Shown here in pieces: positions 2,925 through 16,781 of a stretch of DNA of 23,906 nucleotides (position 1 is the first letter of the stretch; each line of letters opens with the position of its first letter). The translations under genes were made by a program, and so were the position numbers. Under the pieces are notes generated by a model, which did not search any database, had not been told where the DNA came from, and saw nothing but the letters and a program-made list of their open reading frames with translations. The DNA is taken from positions 1-23,906 of IMG/VR virus record IMGVR_UViG_3300049491_000397; one strand, written 5' to 3'. This DNA is from a virus.

Positions 2925-5900
2925 TTAATAGCCATGCGCCACGGCGAGGATGTAGCCGTCGGCCGGCTGCCCCGCGTCATCGCGTCCGACGACCATAGGG
3001 CCGCCGGTGTAGAGATCCATCACCCGCACTTTCGTCATCGGATAGTCCTCATCGAGCACCGTGCACGTGAGGGCTTGGATTAAGAAAAACACCGGGACGC
3101 CGGTGCTGTAGAAGCAGAGAGCGTAGAGGCGCAGGCCGCCGATCGGGATATAGACCCGCGACAATTTCCTGGTCTTGTCCGGCAGGTCGTATTGGATATT
3201 GATCGAGGTGATGATCGCCTGGACGCTGCCGCCGATCGCCGTAATACGGAAATCATATTCATGGTGGCGGGGCGCCTTCACGCCGCCGAGCCAGGGGTAA
3301 TAGACGCCGGTGATCGGCGACCAGAACAGCGTGGGGTCCGTCGACCAGAACGGGGCCGCGTCGGTCGTCCAGAACTTCGCGCTCGCGTGGACCCGGTACT
3401 CGAGCAGGAGCCCTTGGTCGTTCGACGCGACGTTCACAAACATCGTCCCGCCGGCGATCGACACATACATGGGCGGGGTCTCGACGAAGCTATAGTGCAT
3501 TTCCTTCGACGAGCCGTTCCAGAAGAGGGCCGCGTCGGTGGTCCAAAACGGCGGGCTCCAGTTCGGGGTCCCGGTGTTTGTGTCGAGAGGGACGTGCCAA
3601 AATAAGCCGCCGCTACTGTCGGCGACGAGCTGGTTCGAGATCACCGTGCAGTTGGTCTTGGTGCCGCTGAACGTCGGGTGCTGCGGGCGGGTCAGCGTAA
3701 TGTTCCCGACGATCCGGTCGTCGACGTCGAGCGTCACCGACGCAAACCCGGTGCTCTCGTGGCCGGCGGTGTCGATCGCTTTCACCATGACGGTGCGCTG
3801 GGTGCCGTCCGGGACGACCGGGAGTTTATAGAGGGGCGTCGGCCATCGCGTGAGGGGGACCGCATCGGCCCAGATCGCTTGCGCGCCGGATCGCCATCGC
3901 AAATGGAACCCGCGCAGGTCGAGGGGCAGGTCGACCTCGTCTGCCGGGTTGTAGGCCCAATGCACCCCGTCGGCCTGTAGCTCGAGGACGTCCGGGTCTG
4001 GCGGCGGCGTGGTCTTCCCGATCACCGTGTAACTGTCGATGTTGATCCATCCGCTGAAGAGGCCCAGGTCTTCGGAAATCGAGCGGACCCGCACGTCGTA
4101 GTTCCGGCCATCGCGCACGTCGGGAATCGAGACGACGCTCCCGTTGCCGGAAATCGGGGCGTAGATTTGGACATAGTTTTGGGACGAGCCGGTCAACCGA
4201 TACTGGGCCTCGACCTTGCTCACCAATTCCTTGATCGCCGATCCGAAGTGCAGGGTGATTACGATCCGGCTGTGCAGGGTGCCGTCGAGGTCCTTCGTCA
4301 GGACCGCCTCGTCGGATTGGATCAACTCGACGATCGGGACCGGGATCACTTGTTGTGGCGTCGACGCGATGGTGATGTCGCTCTGGTAGGGCGGGATCAC
4401 CTCCTCGGCCGCGTCGAAAATTTCCGGCGCGTAATCCTGCAGGGTGACCGTGGCCGTGAAGTCCTGGCCCATTTCGATGTTCGTCACGATCCCGTCGATG
4501 CTGTCCTGCCCGGCGATGCCGATCGTCACGAGATCGCCGACGCCCGGCGAGCTCTGTTCGTGCATCCGCCAATAGCCCGAGGGCGCGTCGTTCATCACCG
4601 TCTCGTGGTAGCCGGACAGCTGGACCGCGGCGCCAGAGGTGGGGATGTATTGCGTCGGGGCGTAGCCCGGCTCGAGCTGGGCGCCCCACAAGTACAGCCC
4701 GGAGGAACCGTCGCCGTTGTAGGTGACGGAATTGGGCGCGGTCTGCATGATGAGGAGAATGTCCATCACCGGCGCGGCCCCGACGGTCCCGCAATAAATC
4801 CCGGTAATCGAGCAGCGATACGACCCGTTCGCCTCGGCCGTCATCGTGTGGTTCACCAGGACGCCGGTGCCGGACGTCGGGCGTTCCGTCATGAGCCCGG
4901 TGGACAGGTCGTATTCGACCCGGATCAATCCGAGCGTACCGATGCTGCCGTGGTTCATCTGCAAGCGGAGGATGCTGCGCTCGGCCGGCTTGGCGTAGAT
5001 CGAGAAGGTGTAAACCTCCCCGATCGGGATCGCCAGGTTGTTGATGTACATGTAGTGCGAATTCGCGGCGGTCAGGTCGTCGACCATCTTGTCCATCGTC
5101 GTGGTCCCGTTCGGGGCCATCGAGACGTTCAGGGTTTCCGTCGTCCGCGCGTTCAGCCACGTGCCGATCTGGCTCAAGTCTTCCGAATGCTTGAGCAGGT
5201 TCTGCCCGCGGGAACGGGATGCAGCCCAATGCCGGCCGATCTGCGCGGGCGTCAACACGAAGGGGTAATAGGCGACGTCGGTGAAGGCGGCCCCGCATCG
5301 GCCGACGGCCGTGGCGACGTTCTGCCGGCCGGTGATCATCGTCGTCGACGCCGGCAGCCCGGCGGCGTTCGCCCCCTGTGTTGCGAGGTAGTTGTTGATC
5401 GTCAGGGTGACGTTGGTGCCGTCGAAGGTGGCGACGCAATGGTTCCACATATCGGGGAGCATGTCCGCGGATCCGGCGTCCGCGAGCTTGCCCACCAGGA
5501 CGTTCGCCCATTCGACGGTGACGCCGAAGCGGCCGTTGGCGCCGGTTTGCTGGACCATCGTCTGCCAGCTGTTGCTGGCGTCGATGAACTTGCCGGTGTA
5601 GCGTTGCGTCGTCCCACCTTCCCCGACGAAGTTCGGCGCCTTGATCCATTGCTCGATCGTGAAGGCGCCCGCGGTGTCGGTGAATTTGAAATCGTTGACG
5701 CCGCCGAAGAGCAAATAGGCGCCGTTCGGGCCGTCGAGATAGGTGCCGGTCGTGGGATCCGCGACCGCTTGGTGGGGCCCATAGTCGCCGGTCCGGCAGG
5801 GGCCGTTGAACACGCCGTCTGTGCCGTTGCCGCTGTAGTCGGTGATCGCCGGGTAGAACGTCGCGATCGAGGGCTGGGGCGTGAGGATGTTCGTGCTGCC

Positions 5901-8507
5901 GGCAAAGATCGCGAGCGGGTAGAGGGTCTGCAATCCCTGGGCGGACTTCACGCGCATCGTGTAGAACTTGCCGCCGTCAAAGTCGACGAGCTCGTCGAGG
6001 GTGAGGCTCGAAATCACGGCGCTCACGCTCTGGGTCATCGCGATGATCCGGCCCTGGTCGACGCCGGCGAGGATCACGTCGTGCACCAGCTGCACCCGGT
6101 CTCCGCGCGTAAAGGTAATATTTTCCACGTCCATCTGGACCTGGTAATCCTGCGAGCGCCCGAGGGCCTCTTTGAGTTCCCGGCGTTTCAATCGGTAGAC
6201 TTGCCGGTCGCTCGTGACCCCGAGGCCGGCGTCGACCTCTTCAAAGATCGAGGCGTTCGATTGGGTGTAGCCGTCCGCGTAGACGGTGCGTTCGCCCTGC
6301 TCCCAATTGTTGGCCTCGTCCACGAAGCGGACCTTGAAGGCGTGGGGGATCTCGACGAATCGCTTGGTCCATTTGAAGCCCCAGGAATTGCGCGGGGTGA
6401 TCACATCCACCGGCGTCGGTTGGAGCTGCTCCATGATGAGGGAATATTTCATGTCGCGCATGGCGAAGGTGGCGCGGCCGGCCGACAGGATGTCCTGGCG
6501 GAGCTGGCGGACCGTGGTGCGGAAATCGATGACGGCGCTGAAGCCGTACCCTTGCAGCTCGCACTCGTCATAGAAGGCCTGCAGGGTCGGCAGATCCATG
6601 CGGACGTCGTCCTTCGGCTTCCGGTTCGACGTGCCCGTCATGAGGGAAAAGTAGACGCTCGCCGGGTTGTTCGTCGGGCCCGGCGTCCAATTCACGCCGT
6701 CCCACACCGGGAGGATGCTGGTCCCGACACAATTGAATTTGTCGATGATGCCGTTGAGCTGGTCCGTCGATTGGATCCGCATGCCGATCAGGGCGAGCCC
6801 GGCTTTCCGCACGGCCGTGCCCTGCTGGATCGACCGGAGCATGGTCCAGTAGGTCGTGTCCTGAATGATCAGGGTGCCATCGAATCCCGAGACGTAGGCG
6901 CTGGTTTTCATCACCCGGACGTCGTATTCGCCGGCCGGCACTCTGAAGCTGTGGTTGTAGCGCAGGGCGGAATCCGACAGGGCGGTGACGCTGAACAGGG
7001 GGACCGAATCGTCGCCGCCGCTGAGCTGATAGTCGGCGTTGACATAGACCTGCCCGCCGCGCGAGGCGGTCGTCGTGAGGGCGATCGTCCCGGTTCCGTT
7101 GTTCCCGCCGGCGTCCGCCACGGTGACCAGGGCGTTCGCCTGGGCGTTCGCCGCGATCCCGGCCTTGACGTCGTTCGCCGTCGTCACGCCCTGAATGATC
7201 CCGATCTGGATGCTGGGGACCGCGTAGTTCGACCGGGGCGACGGCAGGGGGACGTTCGGGCCGGCTTGAATAAACGGCGTCCATTGCAGGCCGGTCCGGG
7301 TCGAGAGGAGCTGCCGGTGCACGAACCGAATGTGCACGTTGTTGCCGGCGTGGCCGTAAGCCTTCGCGGTAAACACCAGGTCGTTGTTGGCGCCCGAGAA
7401 GGCGGTGGTTGCCGTGGCCTTCACGTCCGTCTTCGTCGTGCTCGTCCAGGCGCCGGGATCGCCGGCGAGCCGATACTCGACCGCCACTTCCCAGGTCCGG
7501 GCGCCGCGGTATTTCGCAATTTGTCGGCCGAGCCCCAGGGGCAGGGCCATGTCGAGGCTGATCTCGACGGTGTTCCGCTGGGTCCGTCGTTGAAACCAGA
7601 CCGTCGACGCACGCTGCCGGGTGGCCAGGAGAATGTTGAGCTGCTCCTCGAAGACATCTTGAGGCATCATCTTCAGGGCCGGGTCATTCGCGTGGCCGCT
7701 CAACACTTCGAGCGTGATGCCGGCGAAGGGGCCGTTCTTGATCGTGAGCGTGCCGTCCTCGAGGACCTCGTTCGCGTTCGTCGGATCGAGGGGCGTCTCG
7801 CCGATCTTCAGGTCGCTCAACTCCAGCGGACCGTAGCCGCAACAAAACACGAGCCGCAGGAATTGTTTGTTCCCTTTGATCTCGGTGAACGGCCGGGCGA
7901 CCAACGGGGGGAAGATCCGGTGTCGTCCGTAGATCCGGGGGATCGGGCCATAGGGGACGAACGCGTTGCTTGATCCGGTCAAGGAGAGCGTCGGGCTGGT
8001 GCTGCCGCTGTTCCCGGACAACTCCGGGAGCTGGGGCCGCGGGGGTGGAATCAAGGCGTTCACGGCGAGCATGCCGCCGATGCCCACGCCGGCGGTCAGC
8101 AAGGTCCCGGCGATCCCGCTGAAGAACACGACGGACGACGCCCCGGCGCCGAGCGCGGCGCCGATCGCCATCGCGGCCCAAGGGGCGGCGAAGGCTAAAG
8201 CCACGACGCCGAGCATGGCGACAATCTGCATCGTGCTCTTGCCGCCGCCGCCGCCGCCGCCGGTCCCCGGGATGCAGCGCATGACGACGGATTGTCCGGC
8301 GCGCGTGATCGTATATTCCCAGAGGGCGGACTCGACGAACCGGCCGTCAATCGACACCCGGGCGTGCATCGTCTTCGGGTCCCATCCGATCCGGCGCATG
8401 TGCTCCGAGACGGTGGACCCGGGGGGCAGGTAGCGGTCGATCCGCCCGCGCTCAATGAAGAGGCTGGGCAGGGCGATCAGTCTGATCGGGTTAGGTTCTG
8501 GCGTCAT
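2925..8507 (-). CDS. gpI/gpJ-like tail hub and central fibre with inserted glycan-binding modules
   Basis: This 1860-residue protein is the host-specificity hub of the tail. Residues 1-80 are a small ubiquitin-like domain, followed by a glycine run at 83-89, a hydrophobic region at 93-153 and PYGPIPRIYGRHRI at 185-198. That arrangement matches a lambda gpI-like part fused to gpJ. The hub core follows (GNKQFLRLVFCCGYGPLELS, later GDRVQLVHDV). From about residue 870 to 1318 it is interrupted by a LamG-like domain (FTIEQWIKAPNF, MWNHCVATFDGTNVTLTIN) and a carbohydrate-binding-like domain (YTFSIYAKPAERS, LYLWGAQLEPGYAPTQYIPT). The hub resumes with GDLVTIG and LQDYAPEIFDAAEEVIPPY, then FN3-like domains. 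FW repeats lie at about 1650-1667 and 1709-1732. The start has GGGAG nine bases upstream. Confidence 0.88.
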   Translation of the reverse strand: MTPEPNPIRLIALPSLFIERGRIDRYLPPGSTVSEHMRRIGWDPKTMHARVSIDGRFVESALWEYTITRAGQSVVMRCIPGTGGGGGGGKSTMQIVAMLGVVALAFAAPWAAMAIGAALGAGASSVVFFSGIAGTLLTAGVGIGGMLAVNALIPPPRPQLPELSGNSGSTSPTLSLTGSSNAFVPYGPIPRIYGRHRIFPPLVARPFTEIKGNKQFLRLVFCCGYGPLELSDLKIGETPLDPTNANEVLEDGTLTIKNGPFAGITLEVLSGHANDPALKMMPQDVFEEQLNILLATRQRASTVWFQRRTQRNTVEISLDMALPLGLGRQIAKYRGARTWEVAVEYRLAGDPGAWTSTTKTDVKATATTAFSGANNDLVFTAKAYGHAGNNVHIRFVHRQLLSTRTGLQWTPFIQAGPNVPLPSPRSNYAVPSIQIGIIQGVTTANDVKAGIAANAQANALVTVADAGGNNGTGTIALTTTASRGGQVYVNADYQLSGGDDSVPLFSVTALSDSALRYNHSFRVPAGEYDVRVMKTSAYVSGFDGTLIIQDTTYWTMLRSIQQGTAVRKAGLALIGMRIQSTDQLNGIIDKFNCVGTSILPVWDGVNWTPGPTNNPASVYFSLMTGTSNRKPKDDVRMDLPTLQAFYDECELQGYGFSAVIDFRTTVRQLRQDILSAGRATFAMRDMKYSLIMEQLQPTPVDVITPRNSWGFKWTKRFVEIPHAFKVRFVDEANNWEQGERTVYADGYTQSNASIFEEVDAGLGVTSDRQVYRLKRRELKEALGRSQDYQVQMDVENITFTRGDRVQLVHDVILAGVDQGRIIAMTQSVSAVISSLTLDELVDFDGGKFYTMRVKSAQGLQTLYPLAIFAGSTNILTPQPSIATFYPAITDYSGNGTDGVFNGPCRTGDYGPHQAVADPTTGTYLDGPNGAYLLFGGVNDFKFTDTAGAFTIEQWIKAPNFVGEGGTTQRYTGKFIDASNSWQTMVQQTGANGRFGVTVEWANVLVGKLADAGSADMLPDMWNHCVATFDGTNVTLTINNYLATQGANAAGLPASTTMITGRQNVATAVGRCGAAFTDVAYYPFVLTPAQIGRHWAASRSRGQNLLKHSEDLSQIGTWLNARTTETLNVSMAPNGTTTMDKMVDDLTAANSHYMYINNLAIPIGEVYTFSIYAKPAERSILRLQMNHGSIGTLGLIRVEYDLSTGLMTERPTSGTGVLVNHTMTAEANGSYRCSITGIYCGTVGAAPVMDILLIMQTAPNSVTYNGDGSSGLYLWGAQLEPGYAPTQYIPTSGAAVQLSGYHETVMNDAPSGYWRMHEQSSPGVGDLVTIGIAGQDSIDGIVTNIEMGQDFTATVTLQDYAPEIFDAAEEVIPPYQSDITIASTPQQVIPVPIVELIQSDEAVLTKDLDGTLHSRIVITLHFGSAIKELVSKVEAQYRLTGSSQNYVQIYAPISGNGSVVSIPDVRDGRNYDVRVRSISEDLGLFSGWINIDSYTVIGKTTPPPDPDVLELQADGVHWAYNPADEVDLPLDLRGFHLRWRSGAQAIWADAVPLTRWPTPLYKLPVVPDGTQRTVMVKAIDTAGHESTGFASVTLDVDDRIVGNITLTRPQHPTFSGTKTNCTVISNQLVADSSGGLFWHVPLDTNTGTPNWSPPFWTTDAALFWNGSSKEMHYSFVETPPMYVSIAGGTMFVNVASNDQGLLLEYRVHASAKFWTTDAAPFWSTDPTLFWSPITGVYYPWLGGVKAPRHHEYDFRITAIGGSVQAIITSINIQYDLPDKTRKLSRVYIPIGGLRLYALCFYSTGVPVFFLIQALTCTVLDEDYPMTKVRVMDLYTGGPMVVGRDDAGQPADGYILAVAHGY

Positions 8508-8904: not shown

Positions 8905-9386
8905 ACGAACATTCCCGGAAAATCAAACGGGGTAAAGGAGCCCTCGGGGAATCGCAGGAGGTCCTCCTCATCGATGAACAATTCGCCCTCGATCCGATCG
9001 GCGTCGCCGGTGACGGTCCGCAGGACCATCCCGCTCATCTGCATCTCGATCACGTCGGGCTGGCTCGCCAACACGAGCGAGACGGTAATCGACGGCGGCG
9101 ACCCCGGGGGCAGGCTCCGGATCGCCGTCATGATCGTCTGGTCCACGGCATCGATCGCGAGCTTCACCCGCGGCGTCGATTCCGATCCGTCGTCCGGGAG
9201 GATGATCTCGAAGGGGAACGCGGTGTAGGTGTTGCCGGCGGACACCACCGGCTTCACATCCTGCACCAGGCGCAGCGGGCCGCCGACGATCAGGCTGTGG
9301 GTGATCTCAATCATGGCCAGGAGGACCTGTCCGGATTCCTGGGCGTTGGCGAGTTGGCGGAGGGCGACGGAGGTGGTCCGGCTCAT
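8901..9386 (-). CDS. DUF1833 family tail-tip protein (gpL position)
   Basis: This 161-residue protein holds the position of lambda gpL in the tail tip. It matches my memory of the DUF1833 family: a start with QLANAQESGQVLLAMIEITH, then LRLVQDVKPVVSAGNTYTAF, FEIILPDDGSE with AIDAVDQTIM, and the C-terminal end FPEGSFTPFDFPGMFV. The FPGMF ending is a strong marker of the family. These proteins help form the tail-tip complex between tape measure and central fibre. It is ATGA-coupled on both sides. No cysteine cluster of the kind that binds Fe-S in lambda gpL is visible. Confidence 0.82.
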   Translation of the reverse strand: MSRTTSVALRQLANAQESGQVLLAMIEITHSLIVGGPLRLVQDVKPVVSAGNTYTAFPFEIILPDDGSESTPRVKLAIDAVDQTIMTAIRSLPPGSPPSITVSLVLASQPDVIEMQMSGMVLRTVTGDADRIEGELFIDEEDLLRFPEGSFTPFDFPGMFV

Positions 9387-9748
9387 GGCGGGAACACCTC
9401 GAGCTTCAAGGTGACCGGGATCGTGTCGGGGCCGAGCATCGTGCCAAACACCGGGGGCTCGGTGAACCGATAGCGTTGGGTCAGCAGGGTGAACGGGTCC
9501 GTCATCTCAAATTGCAAGACGCCGCCAAAGAGGGTCGTGACATAAAATTCCTCCAGGAGGAGCCATTGCGCTTTGGTCATGTAGACGATCGGGTGGTCGT
9601 GCCTATCGATCCGGGCGCTCGTCCGCGCGCGGACCTTGGGGGGCCCCACGTCCATCGGGGTCCGGATCTGCGTGTTGCCGATCTCCCGGCGGTAACCTCT
9701 CCAGCTGATTGTGTTCGGTAAGGTGCCGGGCCATTGGATGTAGGCCAT
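9383..9748 (-). CDS. Minor tail protein, gpM-like
   Basis: This 121-residue protein directly follows the tape measure gene, the place of lambda M (109 residues), and begins the tail-tip block M-L-K-I-J. It is beta-rich, with KVRARTSARIDRHDHPIVYM, the helix TKAQWLLLEEFYVTTLFGGV and a C-terminal strand VTLKLEVFPP. A helix of the form LxxFY flanked by strands is characteristic of gpM/DUF2460-like tail-tip proteins that connect the tube to the hub. The start has AGGAGG six bases upstream and the stop overlaps the next start as ATGA. The assignment is by position and general shape. Confidence 0.7.
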   Translation of the reverse strand: MAYIQWPGTLPNTISWRGYRREIGNTQIRTPMDVGPPKVRARTSARIDRHDHPIVYMTKAQWLLLEEFYVTTLFGGVLQFEMTDPFTLLTQRYRFTEPPVFGTMLGPDTIPVTLKLEVFPP

Positions 9749-9750
9749 GT

Positions 9751-12300
9751 CTATCCTCCTGCTTTCGGACTCAGCTTGAAGCGCCCGGACATGGCGCCGT
9801 CGACGTCGCCGCTCGCGATCGCCTGGCGCGTCGCGTCTCGAATCGTGATGTAGAGCTGCCGGGCGCCGTTCGCCCCCATGCCGGCCGAGGTCTTCACGTC
9901 GGCCTTGGCGTAGTTGTTCACGATCACGTTGACGTCGGGGCTCGTCACGGTGATCGGGGTCTCGGTCGGTCTCGTCGCGCGGTCCTCCATGCGCTTGATC
10001 TCGTGGACGTCGCCGCGGGAGAGGACGATCTCGCCGGGCGTCAACATCGCCGGGACCGTGTCCCGGTTGCCGGTGCCCAACACGGGACCGCCGCGGAGGA
10101 AATGCCGGGGGATCATCGGGATCCCGCCGCCGGTCTTGGCGAACACCGAGGGGCCGCCGAAATCGGACCCGCCGCCGGCGAGCTGGGTGCCGGCCGGGAC
10201 GGTGCCGCCGGTGTTCGCAAAGGCGAGCGCCGCCGTGGCGATCGCTTTGGCCGCGGCCATCGCGGCGAGCTGGGCGATGATCTGCCCCACCATGAGCTTG
10301 ACGAAATCGAGGAGGCTCCGCATGACGTCCTTGAAGCTCTTAATCTTGCCGTTCAGGAAATCGTCGAAAAACCGAGCAAAGAAACTTTCCATGGTCTGCA
10401 CCATCCGGCGGGCGATGTCGGCGCCGAGCCCGAAGCCGGACTTCGTGTCGTCCACGTAGCGTTTCATCCCTTTCGCCCACCCGGCGAACACGTCATCCGA
10501 GGCCCGCTCGTTGGCTTCCCCGAGGGCCGTGAGGGATTGCAGCTCGATCGCTTTCTTCGCCTCCTGGGTCATGCTGGTCCGGGTGAGGATCAACTCCGCG
10601 AGCTGGTCCTCGTGGCGCGCCCAATGCTGCAGGAGCTCCCGCGATTCCTCGAGCGTCAGGTCGGTTTGTTTCGCCAGGTTCGCCACCAGCAGGTCGGTTT
10701 CATGGGCATAGCGTTGCGCCGTCGACGCGCCGATCTGGACGTCGTAATTCAGCCGGGCCTGGGCCAGCGCGATCGCCTCGGATTGCCGGGTCTCCCGGTC
10801 CGCCTTAATCGCCGCGGCGCCGGCAAACAGCAGGTCGAGCTGTTGCTTCGCCGTTTGGTTCTGGGCCTCCTGGACCTGGGCTTCGCCTTCGAGCTTCGCG
10901 TTCGTGATTTGCTGGGCGAGCACCAGCCCCTGCTGGGTCAGGTCCGCGACGCGCTTCTGATGATCGGCCTCGATCTTCTGGCGCTCGGTGGCCGTGCCGC
11001 CAAACTTGGCGAGCTGTTCCTTGTGGCCCTGGTCTTCGAGGATGAGCTGGCGTTGCACGTAGCCGGCGGCGGATTCGAGTTCCTGCTGCTTGATCCGGGC
11101 CCGGTCTTCGGCCGCGCGGACGAGCGACGACTGCCCGGCCTGCTCCGCGTTGTCCGCCAGGATCTGCTGGCGCGCGAACCCGAGCTTGGACAGCTCGAGC
11201 TCGTTTTTGATCGCCTGCTCTTTCGCCGCAAACTGGGCCTTGAATTGTTCGATGTCTGCTTTCGCCGGGCCCTGACTGATTTTCTTTTTCTTCGCCGGCT
11301 GCTCGCTCGCGGGCGGAAACGGTTTCACGATCTCGATCGGGACGATCCCTTCGGCGGCCTTGACCTTCATCTCCTCAGCCATCTTGGCGATCCGGTCCAT
11401 CCGGGCGCCCAGTTCCTTGGCCTTCTCTTCGCTGAAAATGTCGAGGATGTTGCTGGCCAGGACGATGATCTGGGCGTTCACCGTGGCGACGCTGATAAAG
11501 AAATCCTTAAAGGCGAACACCAGGCCGCGGATAAAAATGCCGGCGGCCTTCGCGCCTTCGCCCACGCCCATCTCTTTCAGGACGCCGAGGAATTCGTTCA
11601 TGACCGGGATCAGCTCTTTGCCGATCGCGATCGTCATCCCTTTCACGCCGGCCTCGAGGGTCTTCAGCTCGTCGTTGAACTTCTCCGCGGCCTTCGCGTC
11701 CTGCTCCGACATCACGAGCCCGAGGCGCCCGGCCTCGGCCATGAGGGCCTTGATCCCATCCTTGCCCTGGTTCAGGAAGGGGATGAGCTCGAGCCCGGCC
11801 TTGCCGAAGAGCTTGACCGCCGCTTCGGTTTTGCCGGCGTCGTCTTCGGCCGCGGCGAAGGCGGCCGCGACATCGAGGAGGACGTCCTCGGTCGGTCGCA
11901 TCTGTCCGGCGGTGGTGAGGGCGGTGACGCCGAGGCGGCGAAACACGGCCTCACCGTCGCCGACGCCGCGCGCCGCGTCCGTCATGTTTTGGGACAAAAA
12001 CTTCAGGCCCTTGGCGAGCTGGGCATGTTCCACGTCGGCGAGCTTCGCGGCGAACTGCAGCCCGGCCAAGGCCTTGATGTTCACGCCGACCTTCTGGCTG
12101 GTCTTCAGGAGCTCGTCGCCATAGTTGGCCGTACTCTTCGCAATCCCGAAGAGGATCGTGCCGGCGCCGGCGAGCTGGACCCGCCAATCCTTGATGAAGC
12201 TGCCGAAGGATCCGAGGGCGCTCTGCTGTTTCTTGAGCTCGGCATTGAACTGGTCCGCGACCAGTTTCAGCACGAGGGCGAGTTCCCGGTTGTCTACCAT
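9751..12300 (-). CDS. Tape measure protein
   Basis: This 849-residue protein (about the same as lambda gpH, 853) sets tail length. It opens with a helical part containing ALGSFGSFIKDWRVQLAGAG, a hydrophobic pair of segments near residues 250-290, a long charged coiled coil at about 340-560 (rich in Ala, Gln, Glu and Lys), and a conserved C-terminal region. That region has RRMVQTMESFFARFFDDFLNG near residue 635, then a long Ala-rich hydrophobic helix at about 660-694, typical of the lambda-type tape measure C-terminus. The last 120 residues are Gly-rich and beta-like (PRHFLRGGPVLGTGNRDTVP, MLTPGEIVLS). The start overlaps the previous stop as TAATG. The next gene's AGGAGG overlaps its stop. Confidence 0.9.
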   Translation of the reverse strand: MVDNRELALVLKLVADQFNAELKKQQSALGSFGSFIKDWRVQLAGAGTILFGIAKSTANYGDELLKTSQKVGVNIKALAGLQFAAKLADVEHAQLAKGLKFLSQNMTDAARGVGDGEAVFRRLGVTALTTAGQMRPTEDVLLDVAAAFAAAEDDAGKTEAAVKLFGKAGLELIPFLNQGKDGIKALMAEAGRLGLVMSEQDAKAAEKFNDELKTLEAGVKGMTIAIGKELIPVMNEFLGVLKEMGVGEGAKAAGIFIRGLVFAFKDFFISVATVNAQIIVLASNILDIFSEEKAKELGARMDRIAKMAEEMKVKAAEGIVPIEIVKPFPPASEQPAKKKKISQGPAKADIEQFKAQFAAKEQAIKNELELSKLGFARQQILADNAEQAGQSSLVRAAEDRARIKQQELESAAGYVQRQLILEDQGHKEQLAKFGGTATERQKIEADHQKRVADLTQQGLVLAQQITNAKLEGEAQVQEAQNQTAKQQLDLLFAGAAAIKADRETRQSEAIALAQARLNYDVQIGASTAQRYAHETDLLVANLAKQTDLTLEESRELLQHWARHEDQLAELILTRTSMTQEAKKAIELQSLTALGEANERASDDVFAGWAKGMKRYVDDTKSGFGLGADIARRMVQTMESFFARFFDDFLNGKIKSFKDVMRSLLDFVKLMVGQIIAQLAAMAAAKAIATAALAFANTGGTVPAGTQLAGGGSDFGGPSVFAKTGGGIPMIPRHFLRGGPVLGTGNRDTVPAMLTPGEIVLSRGDVHEIKRMEDRATRPTETPITVTSPDVNVIVNNYAKADVKTSAGMGANGARQLYITIRDATRQAIASGDVDGAMSGRFKLSPKAGG

Positions 12301-13385
12301 TATTGCACCCCTACAATGTCTCGGGCGTGTGGTTGTGCGCTATCGAGGAGGACGCCCCGGGGGCAGGCGCCGACGTGTCCGGATCCGGCCGGCAGGAGGC
12401 AGCTCACCCACTGGGTCCCGGGCATCCGTCCGTAGATCGCCTGGGCGCTCGGGGTGGCCCCGCTGATGCCGGTCGAGTAAATAAAATCAACGAGATAGAC
12501 GGTGTAGACGATCGGCTGGGCCGTGTCGGTTTCGCTCGCCTGCCCGATCGCCTTCCGCTTCCGGCTCCCGATCGGCTGGGCCAGGTCGGTTTCCGTCGCC
12601 TGATTCACGGTGACGGTGTGCCCGAGGCCGCTCTTGATCGCCGTCATGGGCTGGGCCAGGTCGGTCTCTGCCCCCAGGCCGAGGAGTTTCGCCTTGGCGT
12701 GGGTCAGCGCCTGGGCCAGGTCGGTTTCGCTCGCCTGGGTCAAAGCACGGCGTTTCTGGGGGGTGATCGGCTGGGCCAGGTCGGTCTCCGCCGGCTGCCC
12801 GATCGCCCGGGTCTTCAGGGACGTGATCGGCTGGGCCAGGTCCGTCTCCGTCACCTGGCCGACGGCGACGGTGTGGCCGCCGCCCGTCAGGATCGCGGTC
12901 ATGGGCTGGGCGGTGTCGGTCTCGGTGGTCTGCCCGAGGAGCTGGGTCTTCCGGGACGTCAGGGCCTGGGCCGTGTCCGTCTCCGCCGTCTGGTTCACGA
13001 GCCGGCGCTTCGGGTTGTTCGTAATCGCCTGGGCCAGATCGGTTTCCGTGGTCTGCCCGACGAGCCGGCGCTTCGGGTTGTTCGTGATCGCCTGGGCGAG
13101 ATCGGTTTCTGTGGTCTGGTTCACCAGCCGGCGCTTCGGCGCCCACGCGATCGGTTGCGCGAGGTCCGTCTCGGTCGTCTGTCCGATCGCCTTCGTCTTC
13201 CGGTGCGTGATCGGCTGGGCGAGCTCGGTCTCGGTGGCCTGGTTGATGAGCCGGCGTTTGGGGTTCCACGCGATGGGCTGGGCGGTGTCGGTTTCGCTCG
13301 CCTGCCCGACGGCGACGGTCTGCGCCCCGGACACCGGCGGATCGAGGTCTTCGTCAAACCATCGCTGGATGATCAGGCTATTCAT
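12300..13385 (-). CDS. Tandem-repeat protein (ETDxAQ repeats)
   Basis: This 361-residue protein consists largely of about 13 consecutive units of roughly 20 residues with the core (G/N)Q-x-x-ETD-x-AQ-(P/A)-(I/L/M), followed by a basic segment such as KRRL or KTKA. A short N-terminal leader precedes (MNSLIIQRWFDEDLDPP), and a non-repeat C-terminal part of about 70 residues follows (VYTVYLVDFIYSTG...). Acidic and basic blocks alternate, so the units may form a fibre-like solenoid. Repeats of this type occur in environmental and actinobacterial phage structural proteins, in my recollection, with no known role. It lies just before the tape measure gene, to which it is coupled by TAATG. Function is unknown; a virion or fibre component is the best guess. 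Confidence 0.7.
   Translation of the reverse strand: MNSLIIQRWFDEDLDPPVSGAQTVAVGQASETDTAQPIAWNPKRRLINQATETELAQPITHRKTKAIGQTTETDLAQPIAWAPKRRLVNQTTETDLAQAITNNPKRRLVGQTTETDLAQAITNNPKRRLVNQTAETDTAQALTSRKTQLLGQTTETDTAQPMTAILTGGGHTVAVGQVTETDLAQPITSLKTRAIGQPAETDLAQPITPQKRRALTQASETDLAQALTHAKAKLLGLGAETDLAQPMTAIKSGLGHTVTVNQATETDLAQPIGSRKRKAIGQASETDTAQPIVYTVYLVDFIYSTGISGATPSAQAIYGRMPGTQWVSCLLPAGSGHVGACPRGVLLDSAQPHARDIVGVQ
12510..13319 (-). repeat. About 13 tandem copies of a 60-base coding repeat
   Basis: The repeat array encodes the ETDxAQ units. DNA copies share runs such as CTGGGCCAGGTCGGT on the plus strand. Most units are about 60 bases, while two are longer (about 75 bases) and carry a GxGHTV linker. 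The units at about 13000-13130 are nearly identical in DNA, which suggests recent duplication. Confidence 0.8.
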
Positions 13386-14119
13386 GCGAAGGCCTCACGC
13401 ATCCAGGCGGCGCTGGTCAGGTCCGGCCATTGGCCTTCGTCGTCTTCGTGGGTCACGATCGGGGGGACCCGCTCGGGGTGGTTCAGCGGGATCCGGTAGA
13501 AGGCCGCGACCGACGCCCAGAGCTGGTCCCCGGTGTCGATCACGCTAAAGGTCGTCTCGATCGTCTGGATGGCATCGATGTCCCGCATCGCGACGCTGAG
13601 CCCGGGGTTCGAGAGGCCTGGGTCGGTAGCCGAAACCACGAAGGCGACCTCGTTGAATCCCTTGCTCCAACTCCGTCCGTCGTTCGCGGCGTCGGCCGAA
13701 TCGGACGCGCAAATCGCGAGGGCGACGGTCTGCGGGTAGGTCGTCGACGCGGTGGTCCCGGTCGAGAGGGAGGTGACGGCGCTCACGCCAGAATCGGCCT
13801 CCTGGGCCACATCGAAGACGCGCCCTTCCTGAATCGCGCCGACCCAGGCCGAGGCCTTTTGCGTCGTGGTCCATTGCCATTGGACGCTGGTCTCGGTGCC
13901 GTCGCTGTATTTGTAGGCCCAGGCGCCCGAGACGTTCGTGGAAGTGTAGTTATGGATCAGGGTCCATCCGCTGGGCGTCGTGATCGTGCTCGAGTCCTTG
14001 TCGATCGCAATGGCCGTGACGAGCACCGTTCCTCGTGGAACAATCCCGAAGTTCACGGTCAAGCTCGTCACCGTGACGTCGTTCGAATCGGCCGGGATGT
14101 TGCGGATCAACGTGGACAT
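13382..14119 (-). CDS. Beta-rich presumed virion protein
   Basis: This 245-residue protein begins MSTLIRNIPADSNDVTVTSL. Its Thr/Ser-rich strands (VLVTAIAIDKDSSTITTPSG, WTLIHNYTSTNVSGAWAYKY, TASTTYPQTVALAICASDSA) look like a jelly-roll or Ig-like surface domain. Similar stretches, with PSGWTLI followed by a YK(Y/V)-type strand, are frequent in phage and bacterial surface proteins. The C-terminal 50 residues (YRIPLNHPERVPPIVTHEDD, WPDLTSAAWMREAFA) appear separate and may be a linker or docking part. The ATG directly follows the previous TAG, and its own stop overlaps the repeat-protein start as ATGA. No specific function is assigned. Confidence 0.6.
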   Translation of the reverse strand: MSTLIRNIPADSNDVTVTSLTVNFGIVPRGTVLVTAIAIDKDSSTITTPSGWTLIHNYTSTNVSGAWAYKYSDGTETSVQWQWTTTQKASAWVGAIQEGRVFDVAQEADSGVSAVTSLSTGTTASTTYPQTVALAICASDSADAANDGRSWSKGFNEVAFVVSATDPGLSNPGLSVAMRDIDAIQTIETTFSVIDTGDQLWASVAAFYRIPLNHPERVPPIVTHEDDEGQWPDLTSAAWMREAFA

Positions 14120-15107: not shown

Positions 15108-15905
15108 TTATTGGTCCCCGAAGCAGGCCCAGAAGTAGTTCTGCGGGTCCTGCGCCACAAATGTGATTGCCGTCTGGTCGTAGCTTTCAATCTCGAACAC
15201 GCCGGCCGTCGGGGAGGCGTTCCGGATCGCGTGGTCTTCGACGCCGGTGGCGGTGAGCGCCGTGACCGTCCGCTCGAGGCTGGCGACGACCGAGTAGTTC
15301 GCGCTGGAGAAATCGGTCCCGATATTCACACCCAAGCGTCCGGTCCCGGTGTCGGTGACGCTCGTCGTGTTCCAATTCACGGTGAGGGAGGTGCCGGCGC
15401 CGACCGCCTTGCCCCAGCATTTACAGGCGCCCGGGTGCCAGTTGAATCCCTGGGGCGTCACATATTTATCGGTAGCGGTGCCCGCTTCCATCTCGGCTTG
15501 CGTGGCGGCGTTGCCCACCGAGGGGTAGACGCCGCCGTTCAAGTCGTAGTGAATCCAGACGCCGCTCTGGGTCAGGACCAACGATTCCCCGGCCAGCAAG
15601 ATCACTTTCGCCAGGGTCTCCACGTTGGTGCCGTCGGTATGTTCCACCGTGACGGTGCAGGGCGTCGACGCGTGGTTGTTGTAGATGTTGACGTGCTTGA
15701 CGTTCCGCCGCCGGTTCGAGGTCGTGCAGTCCAGGATCGTCGTCGTCGTGGCCGTCGTGATCGAGGCCGTGTTGGTGCGGACGATGTCCTGGACCACCGG
15801 CGGGGTGGCGTTGTCCGCCTCCATCGCCGACACATGGACTTCGATGTCGGCCGTGGCGCTCGTGACCAAGCGCAGAATGTCGGCCGTGGCTCGCAGGATC
15901 AGCAT
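15108..15905 (-). CDS. Tail fibre-like beta-rich protein
   Basis: This 265-residue protein starts behind AAGGGAG, seven bases upstream, which overlaps the previous stop. The N-terminal half has Thr-rich strands (NTASITTATTTTILDC) and a jelly-roll-like piece NVKHVNIYNNHASTPCTVTV followed by LLAGESLVLTQSGVWIHYD. The middle contains NAATQAEMEAGTATDKYVTP, a linker typical of phage tail fibre and receptor-binding proteins ahead of their tip domain. The C-terminal domain, about 110 residues, has strands ending FWACFGDQ. This makes a fibre or adhesin subunit likely. The exact role in the particle is unknown. Confidence 0.62.
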   Translation of the reverse strand: MLILRATADILRLVTSATADIEVHVSAMEADNATPPVVQDIVRTNTASITTATTTTILDCTTSNRRRNVKHVNIYNNHASTPCTVTVEHTDGTNVETLAKVILLAGESLVLTQSGVWIHYDLNGGVYPSVGNAATQAEMEAGTATDKYVTPQGFNWHPGACKCWGKAVGAGTSLTVNWNTTSVTDTGTGRLGVNIGTDFSSANYSVVASLERTVTALTATGVEDHAIRNASPTAGVFEIESYDQTAITFVAQDPQNYFWACFGDQ

Positions 15906-15917
15906 GGCTCGGCTCCC

Positions 15918-16391
15918 TTATGAGGCCCGGAAGAATCCGGCGGCCGCAATCTGGGCGGTGATGTCGCTGCCGTCCGGGGTCACCACGAAATCGTGCATGG
16001 TGCAGGGGACGACGTTGGCGTCGGTGCCGCCGGTCGTGTCGTTGTCGTAAGCGATAACCAGGTCGTTCCACCCGTCGCCGGCGGCGACCGCAGTCCAGGT
16101 CTGGTCCGGGATGTCGAGATCCACGCGGTCGTTCGCGTCGTCCGGTGCAAAGGCGGTGAGGTCCGCGTCGGTCAGGGTCTTCCGGGCATAGCCGGAATTC
16201 GTGACCTCGTTCGTCGTGCCGGCCACGAGGGCGGTGACCGTGTCGACGTCCCGGAGGGTGGCGTCGGATTCAATCCCGGCCGTGGCCAGAATCAACACAA
16301 TGAAGGCGGAATTCGCCGGGTCGTTGCCGTCGATGCGGACATAGAATTCCGCCACGCGGCCCTTGGCGATGTTAAAGACCTGATCGGCCAT
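15918..16391 (-). CDS. Presumed virion protein of unknown function
   Basis: This 157-residue protein begins MADQVFNIAKGRVAEFYVRI and has an acidic, beta-rich make-up with few basic residues. Segments include SAFIVLILATAGIES, YARKTLTDADLTAFAPDD, DIPDQTWTAVAAGDGWNDLVI and PCTMHDFVVTPDGSDITAQ. Proteins of this style recur in environmental phage tail regions, to my recollection, without an assigned role. The start lies three bases after the previous stop. There is no signal peptide or catalytic motif. It probably contributes to the virion, but this rests on context only. Confidence 0.6.
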   Translation of the reverse strand: MADQVFNIAKGRVAEFYVRIDGNDPANSAFIVLILATAGIESDATLRDVDTVTALVAGTTNEVTNSGYARKTLTDADLTAFAPDDANDRVDLDIPDQTWTAVAAGDGWNDLVIAYDNDTTGGTDANVVPCTMHDFVVTPDGSDITAQIAAAGFFRAS

Positions 16392-16394
16392 GGG

Positions 16395-16781
16395 TTACAC
16401 CTTCCCCTTCTGGACGGAAAACTTGGCATGGTCTGCCTCGTCCAAGACGCAATCAAAATAATGAATGACTTCATAACCGGGATCGTCGGCAGTGGGGATG
16501 CTCGTCGGGTATTTCCCGGGCCCGCGCAGGACCGAGTAATGGAGGGCGCCGTTCGTGCCCTTGAGAATCAGCTGGGCCTTGCCGGCCTCGTCCTTGGTCA
16601 TCTCCATCCAGCCCTCCTGCAGGCCGCGCAACACCAGGCGATCGCTGAAGTGCTGGTCTCGGGAATGCCCGGTGTGCTTCACTTCGACGCCGGTGCACGG
16701 CGGCGGGTTGATGCAATCGCCGGCGGCGTTCACTTCCTTGACCCAGCCCGCGGGGGTGGCATAGATCCGTTTGAGTAACAT
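16395..16781 (-). CDS. Protein of unknown function in tail island
   Basis: This 128-residue protein starts MLLKRIYATPAGWVKEVNAAGDC behind AGAGGAGGCGCCC, one of the strongest ribosome binding sites in the window. It contains a Cys-containing loop CINPPPCTG, then a mixed alpha/beta part with LVLRGLQEGWMEMTKDEAG, AQLILKG and ALHYSVLRGPGKYP, and ends HAKFSVQKGKV. No family was recognised. The arrangement beside other small beta-rich genes suggests an accessory virion protein. It is separated by 28 bases from the lipoprotein stop and by three bases from the next start. Confidence 0.6.
   Translation of the reverse strand: MLLKRIYATPAGWVKEVNAAGDCINPPPCTGVEVKHTGHSRDQHFSDRLVLRGLQEGWMEMTKDEAGKAQLILKGTNGALHYSVLRGPGKYPTSIPTADDPGYEVIHYFDCVLDEADHAKFSVQKGKV

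Follow-up and report, generated by a model that had tools for sequence, protein, structure and literature searches.

A tandem array of 20-residue units linked to a conserved partner gene in phage late regions, a candidate stalk of a mobile decoration or adhesion cassette

The window, that is, the whole stretch of DNA analysed here, is an IMG/VR virus record of 23,906 bases. The phage is siphovirus-like, with its late genes encoded on the minus strand: an S49-type head protease, the major capsid protein, the tail tube, the tape measure protein, a minor tail protein and a J-like central fibre. The repeat-array gene (12300-13385, minus strand) encodes 361 residues. Four bases at its start are shared with the stop of the upstream gene, and one base at its stop with the start of the tape measure gene. 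The latter (9751-12300, minus strand; phrog_8462, E 6e-42) lies directly 3', and the overlapping gene directly 5' is g245 (13382-14119, minus strand), which belongs to no known family. Three further genes on the same strand are part of the argument below: the tail-fibre-like g265 (15108-15905; phrog_11355), which lies inside the cassette, g157 (15918-16391; phrog_26662, related to phrog_644), which is the conserved partner of the repeat gene, and g128 (16395-16781), a member of the conserved cassette that usually lies directly 5' of g157.

Elsewhere in the window, the J-like central fibre (2925-8507, 1860 aa) has an extra region at about residues 1031-1296 that matches the phage tail families phrog_5939/34853, and its gene contains a 24-bp tandem repeat at 3314-3375 (FWTTDAA/FWSTDP motif). 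The 501-residue protein at 1404-2909 is probably a depolymerase or fibre part of the tail end, judging from two stretches that match Phage_depo_C (PF25692). Two long open frames run over the repeat array on the plus strand (12303-13499, 398 aa, and 12610-13548, 312 aa); they are likely mirror frames that arise from the GC richness of the repetitive gene.

The initial annotation described thirteen ETDxAQ repeats in blocks of seven, four and two, and both the number and the grouping were recovered. The units occupy 12489-13313 on the minus strand, twelve with ETD and unit 2 with ETE, and the 13 ET[DE]xAQ motifs compare with 0.0025 expected (mean of the shuffled protein). A short N-terminal leader of 24 residues, MNSLIIQRWFDEDLDPPVSGAQTV (13314-13385), precedes the array. 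Block 1 (12867-13313) consists of units 1-7, with lengths of 21, 20, 21, 21, 21, 20 and 25 residues, and ends in the Gly-rich linker GGGHTV. Block 2 (12612-12866) consists of units 8-11 (20, 20, 20 and 25 residues) and ends in a second such linker, GLGHTV, while block 3 (12489-12611) holds units 12-13 (20 and 21 residues). A non-repetitive C-terminal tail of 62 residues (12300-12488) completes the protein. Tandem Repeats Finder reports a 255-bp period over 12510-12972, across units 6-13. As 255 bp corresponds to units of 20, 20, 20 and 25 residues, the composition of block 2, the period supports duplication at the level of blocks.

Neighbouring DNA copies had also been described as nearly identical, which does not hold. 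The one close pair is units 4 and 5 (87%), and the remaining neighbour pairs share about 49-77% DNA identity over whole units. Separation has no effect, the mean identity being 0.645 for adjacent and 0.643 for non-adjacent units. Synonymous differences between adjacent window units amount to 0.29-0.67 per site and pN/pS between window units is 0.54, as for constrained substitutions; together these values indicate an old origin and continued constraint for most units. Apart from units 4 and 5, the window array shows no sign of recent single-unit slippage.

Relatives were collected from IMG/VR, 15 loci with the protein itself as query and 64 with a synthetic unit consensus. The 20-residue unit recurs in over 80 phage proteins of IMG/VR and in the Hiyaavirus gp13 family (phrog_14065), a family with no annotated function that 71 of 80 relatives match. 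In a collection of bacterial and archaeal genomes, only four loci with the repeat were found. Among about 620 unit spacings in 54 proteins, 442 are of 20 residues, 62 of 21 (mostly a WAPK variant) and 54 of 22, and 27 are of 23 or 25. The unit core can be written Φ2 G3 Q4 A/V5 x E7 T8 D9 x A11 Q12 x Φ14 x x x K18, Φ standing for a hydrophobic residue, with column conservation of 95% for E7, 91% for A11, 87% for D9, 84% for Q4, 83% for Q12 and 76% for K18. Units longer than 21 residues have the basic stretch swapped for a linker that is often Gly-rich, and mark the block boundaries. Weak Pfam and NCBIfam matches of the arrays (vWA_Ro60, MIP-1, TRF, CBS and others) were judged to be below cut-off or driven by composition, and were rejected.

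The number of units, estimated with a unit profile, varies from about 2 to 26 among relatives. The proposal that the array expands and contracts thus stands over evolutionary time, but no recent change was seen among groups of near-identical contigs, where counts are equal (11 in each of L053, L054, L055 and L057, 7 in each of L033, L034 and L035, 12 in both L063 and L064).

The initial annotation further suggested a fibre or bundle held by charge pairing between repeats. The charged patches themselves are real: acidic residues at columns 7 and 9 and basic residues at columns 16-20 hold over 441 units from the window and its relatives. However, 557 units have two acidic residues in columns 7-9, and 79 of these are devoid of basic residues at column 15 and beyond. 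Units at block boundaries have lost K18 and kept E7 and D9, and relatives in Streptomyces phages retain the basic patch and have mostly lost the acidic one. As the acidic columns persist where the basic partner is missing, charge pairing looks unnecessary; it is weakened as a holding force and rejected as a requirement.

The arrays end near the C-terminus, and the parts before them reach up to 566 residues. According to Pfam, LamG domains precede the array in 7 of 80 proteins, with single cases of Ig, beta-helix and BNR domains. About half of the proteins, including that of the window, have a short leader only and no obvious fused head, and the others carry one or more larger domains N-terminal to the array; in many relatives a large beta domain takes the place of the leader. 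A WFD motif occurs in the leader of only a few relatives. We also considered g245 as a split-off version of the head domain fused in relatives, a candidate dropped as no profile supported it. In L078 and in the Streptomyces phages Keanu and Galactica (L017, L081) the C-terminal tail consists of short TSGPxLTxSTSGPxLT-type repeats of about 10 residues each, distinct from the 20-residue units.

To measure the linkage between the two genes, 80 loci were drawn by g157 alone, near-duplicates were removed, and the downstream count was restricted to loci with at least 5 kb downstream. A repeat gene lies downstream of g157 on the same strand in 27 of 31 non-redundant loci, at a distance of 423-4588 nt, and upstream in 1 of 41. 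A more sensitive seven-unit profile adds one upstream (L120) and two downstream cases (L123, L161) and leaves a single locus, L114, with no repeat gene. The linkage is near-obligate, whereas the position of the pair changes. In the window, L084 and L086 the cassette is placed between tail tube and tape measure; it precedes the tail tube in L094, L106, L113 and L156, follows the tape measure or J in L093, L103, L104, L112 and L115, and precedes the major capsid gene in L158 and L159. The pair is also seen between capsid and tail tube genes and, in Hiyaavirus, between the major capsid protein and the head-tail adaptor. These changing positions favour a self-contained module over a role tied to the tape measure.

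The genes between g157 and the repeat gene vary, and include polysaccharide-lyase-14-like (below Pfam's cut-off) and virion-structural relatives; LamG relatives are also among the neighbours in the cassette. Homologues of g265 occupy this place in L008, L021 and L025. The close syntenic relative L084 has a different gene set there (9339-12254), so that the slot looks like a hotspot of gene exchange. In Pam4, where the repeat family is absent, the g157 homologue adjoins a gene annotated as polysaccharide lyase and a large hub-like gene. No solved structural relative of g157 was found. The family of g157 (phrog_26662/644) is highly conserved in environmental phages, almost always with a repeat gene nearby, and of the two genes g157 may matter more.

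The reading that we prefer, and to which we give about an even chance, is that the array protein acts as a spacer or stalk of variable length within a mobile cassette for virion decoration or adhesion. This cassette would comprise g128, g157, lectin-like or beta-sandwich genes and the repeat protein, the last being a virion-associated stalk of strict 20-residue, beta-rich units. The array would set the reach from the attachment point to a variable binding head, with stalk length and kinks given by the number of units and the block boundaries, and g157, the constant partner, would probably be the adaptor to the particle. In many relatives the binding head would be fused at the N-terminus of the repeat protein; in the window phage the head is missing from it and the neighbours g265 and g245 may supply one. 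Architecture and neighbourhood thus make a fibre or stalk plausible, although a confident fold was not obtained. The N-terminal position of the variable heads counts against a stalk, as this is the end by which many tail fibres are anchored, and so does the lack of an obvious fused head in about half of the relatives. A literature search of partial coverage returned no published description of the array and no virion proteomics or image of the repeat protein.

The same cassette could instead serve as a head fibre or capsid decoration, with g157 binding the capsid and the repeat protein projecting from it. The position in Hiyaavirus fits this proposal, and in L132 and L156 the pair follows S49 protease, decoration-like and major capsid genes. 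On the other hand, the positions 5' of the tape measure in the window, L084 and L086, those after the tape measure or J elsewhere, and the baseplate and hub genes beside g157 in Pam4 speak against it. Gene order alone cannot decide between head and tail; on balance we consider placement on the head rather unlikely, if still the strongest of the alternatives.

The fold was approached by structure prediction. AlphaFold2 gave a pLDDT of 37 for the whole protein from a single sequence, and 47 for a monomer of units 1-7 from a 49-row alignment of seven-unit stretches. The latter model is all-beta with long strands, at low confidence, and it had no Foldseek match in the PDB at E<=0.001; the matches obtained, mostly pore proteins at E>0.08, were disregarded. 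A PDB sequence search with the array found no match at E<=1 and no related solved fibre. Centred on T8, the column profile of the unit resembles its own mirror image (mean cosine 0.65; no other centre exceeds 0.36), which could reflect a hairpin. The unconfident predictions, with or without an alignment, and a residue coupling analysis of the units that shows no clear strand pairing would also suit an intrinsically disordered charged linker, kept for length and solubility only. However, the exact 20-residue period, the near-invariant Q4, E7, D9, A11 and Q12, the conserved hydrophobic columns 2 and 14 and the mirror-like profile exceed the needs of a random linker, and repeat and trimeric fibres are often poorly modelled as monomers. 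We therefore regard disorder as improbable. An oligomeric beta fibre is the putative fold.

A tail-assembly or tail-length accessory of the tape measure, encoded directly 5' and translationally coupled to it, would explain the overlap with the tape measure start and the same order in L084 and L086, but is very unlikely because in most relatives the gene is not beside the tape measure but is found after g157 whatever the position of the cassette, and because large LamG-type heads are ill-suited to an assembly chaperone.

If the pairing can be taken at face value, g157 would serve as a marker of an adhesion or decoration cassette in many uncultured phages, and the genes that follow it would be candidates for host or surface binding. 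PHROGs assigns a function neither to the g157 family nor to the repeat family. A strict and modular unit of 20 residues would, in addition, lend itself to a graded series of protein spacers. A bolder extension of the stalk reading, which we hold only tentatively, is that the mirror-symmetric unit adopts a beta-fibre fold not described before. Together with g157 it would then constitute a portable two-part anchor and stalk, inserted into heads or tails by phages of unrelated hosts so as to display changing adhesins.

The proposed stalk would work like the trimeric beta fibre shafts of adenovirus, reovirus and phage (triple beta-spiral, beta-helix), in which a short, beta-rich repeated unit of variable number lies between an anchor and a binding head. 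The comparison is one of working only: unlike these shafts, the window array has no sequence or fold match in the PDB, and its unit length and consensus differ from those of the trimeric beta fibre repeats known to us. The closest known counterparts are the cultured members of PHROG 14065, gp13 of the Streptomyces phages Hiyaa and Keanu and gp11 of Galactica, labelled minor tail or hypothetical protein; the label "minor tail protein" in Hiyaa and Galactica is an annotation, not a test. The Hiyaavirus proteins have large N-terminal LamG-like regions (profile 1-405 matched), unlike the 24 residues before the window array, and their units are diverged, with the ETD core mostly lost. Nevertheless, residues 168-290 of the window protein match positions 654-771 of the 1152 in the profile (E 5.6e-19), and in Hiyaavirus, as in the window, a g157-type gene lies upstream.
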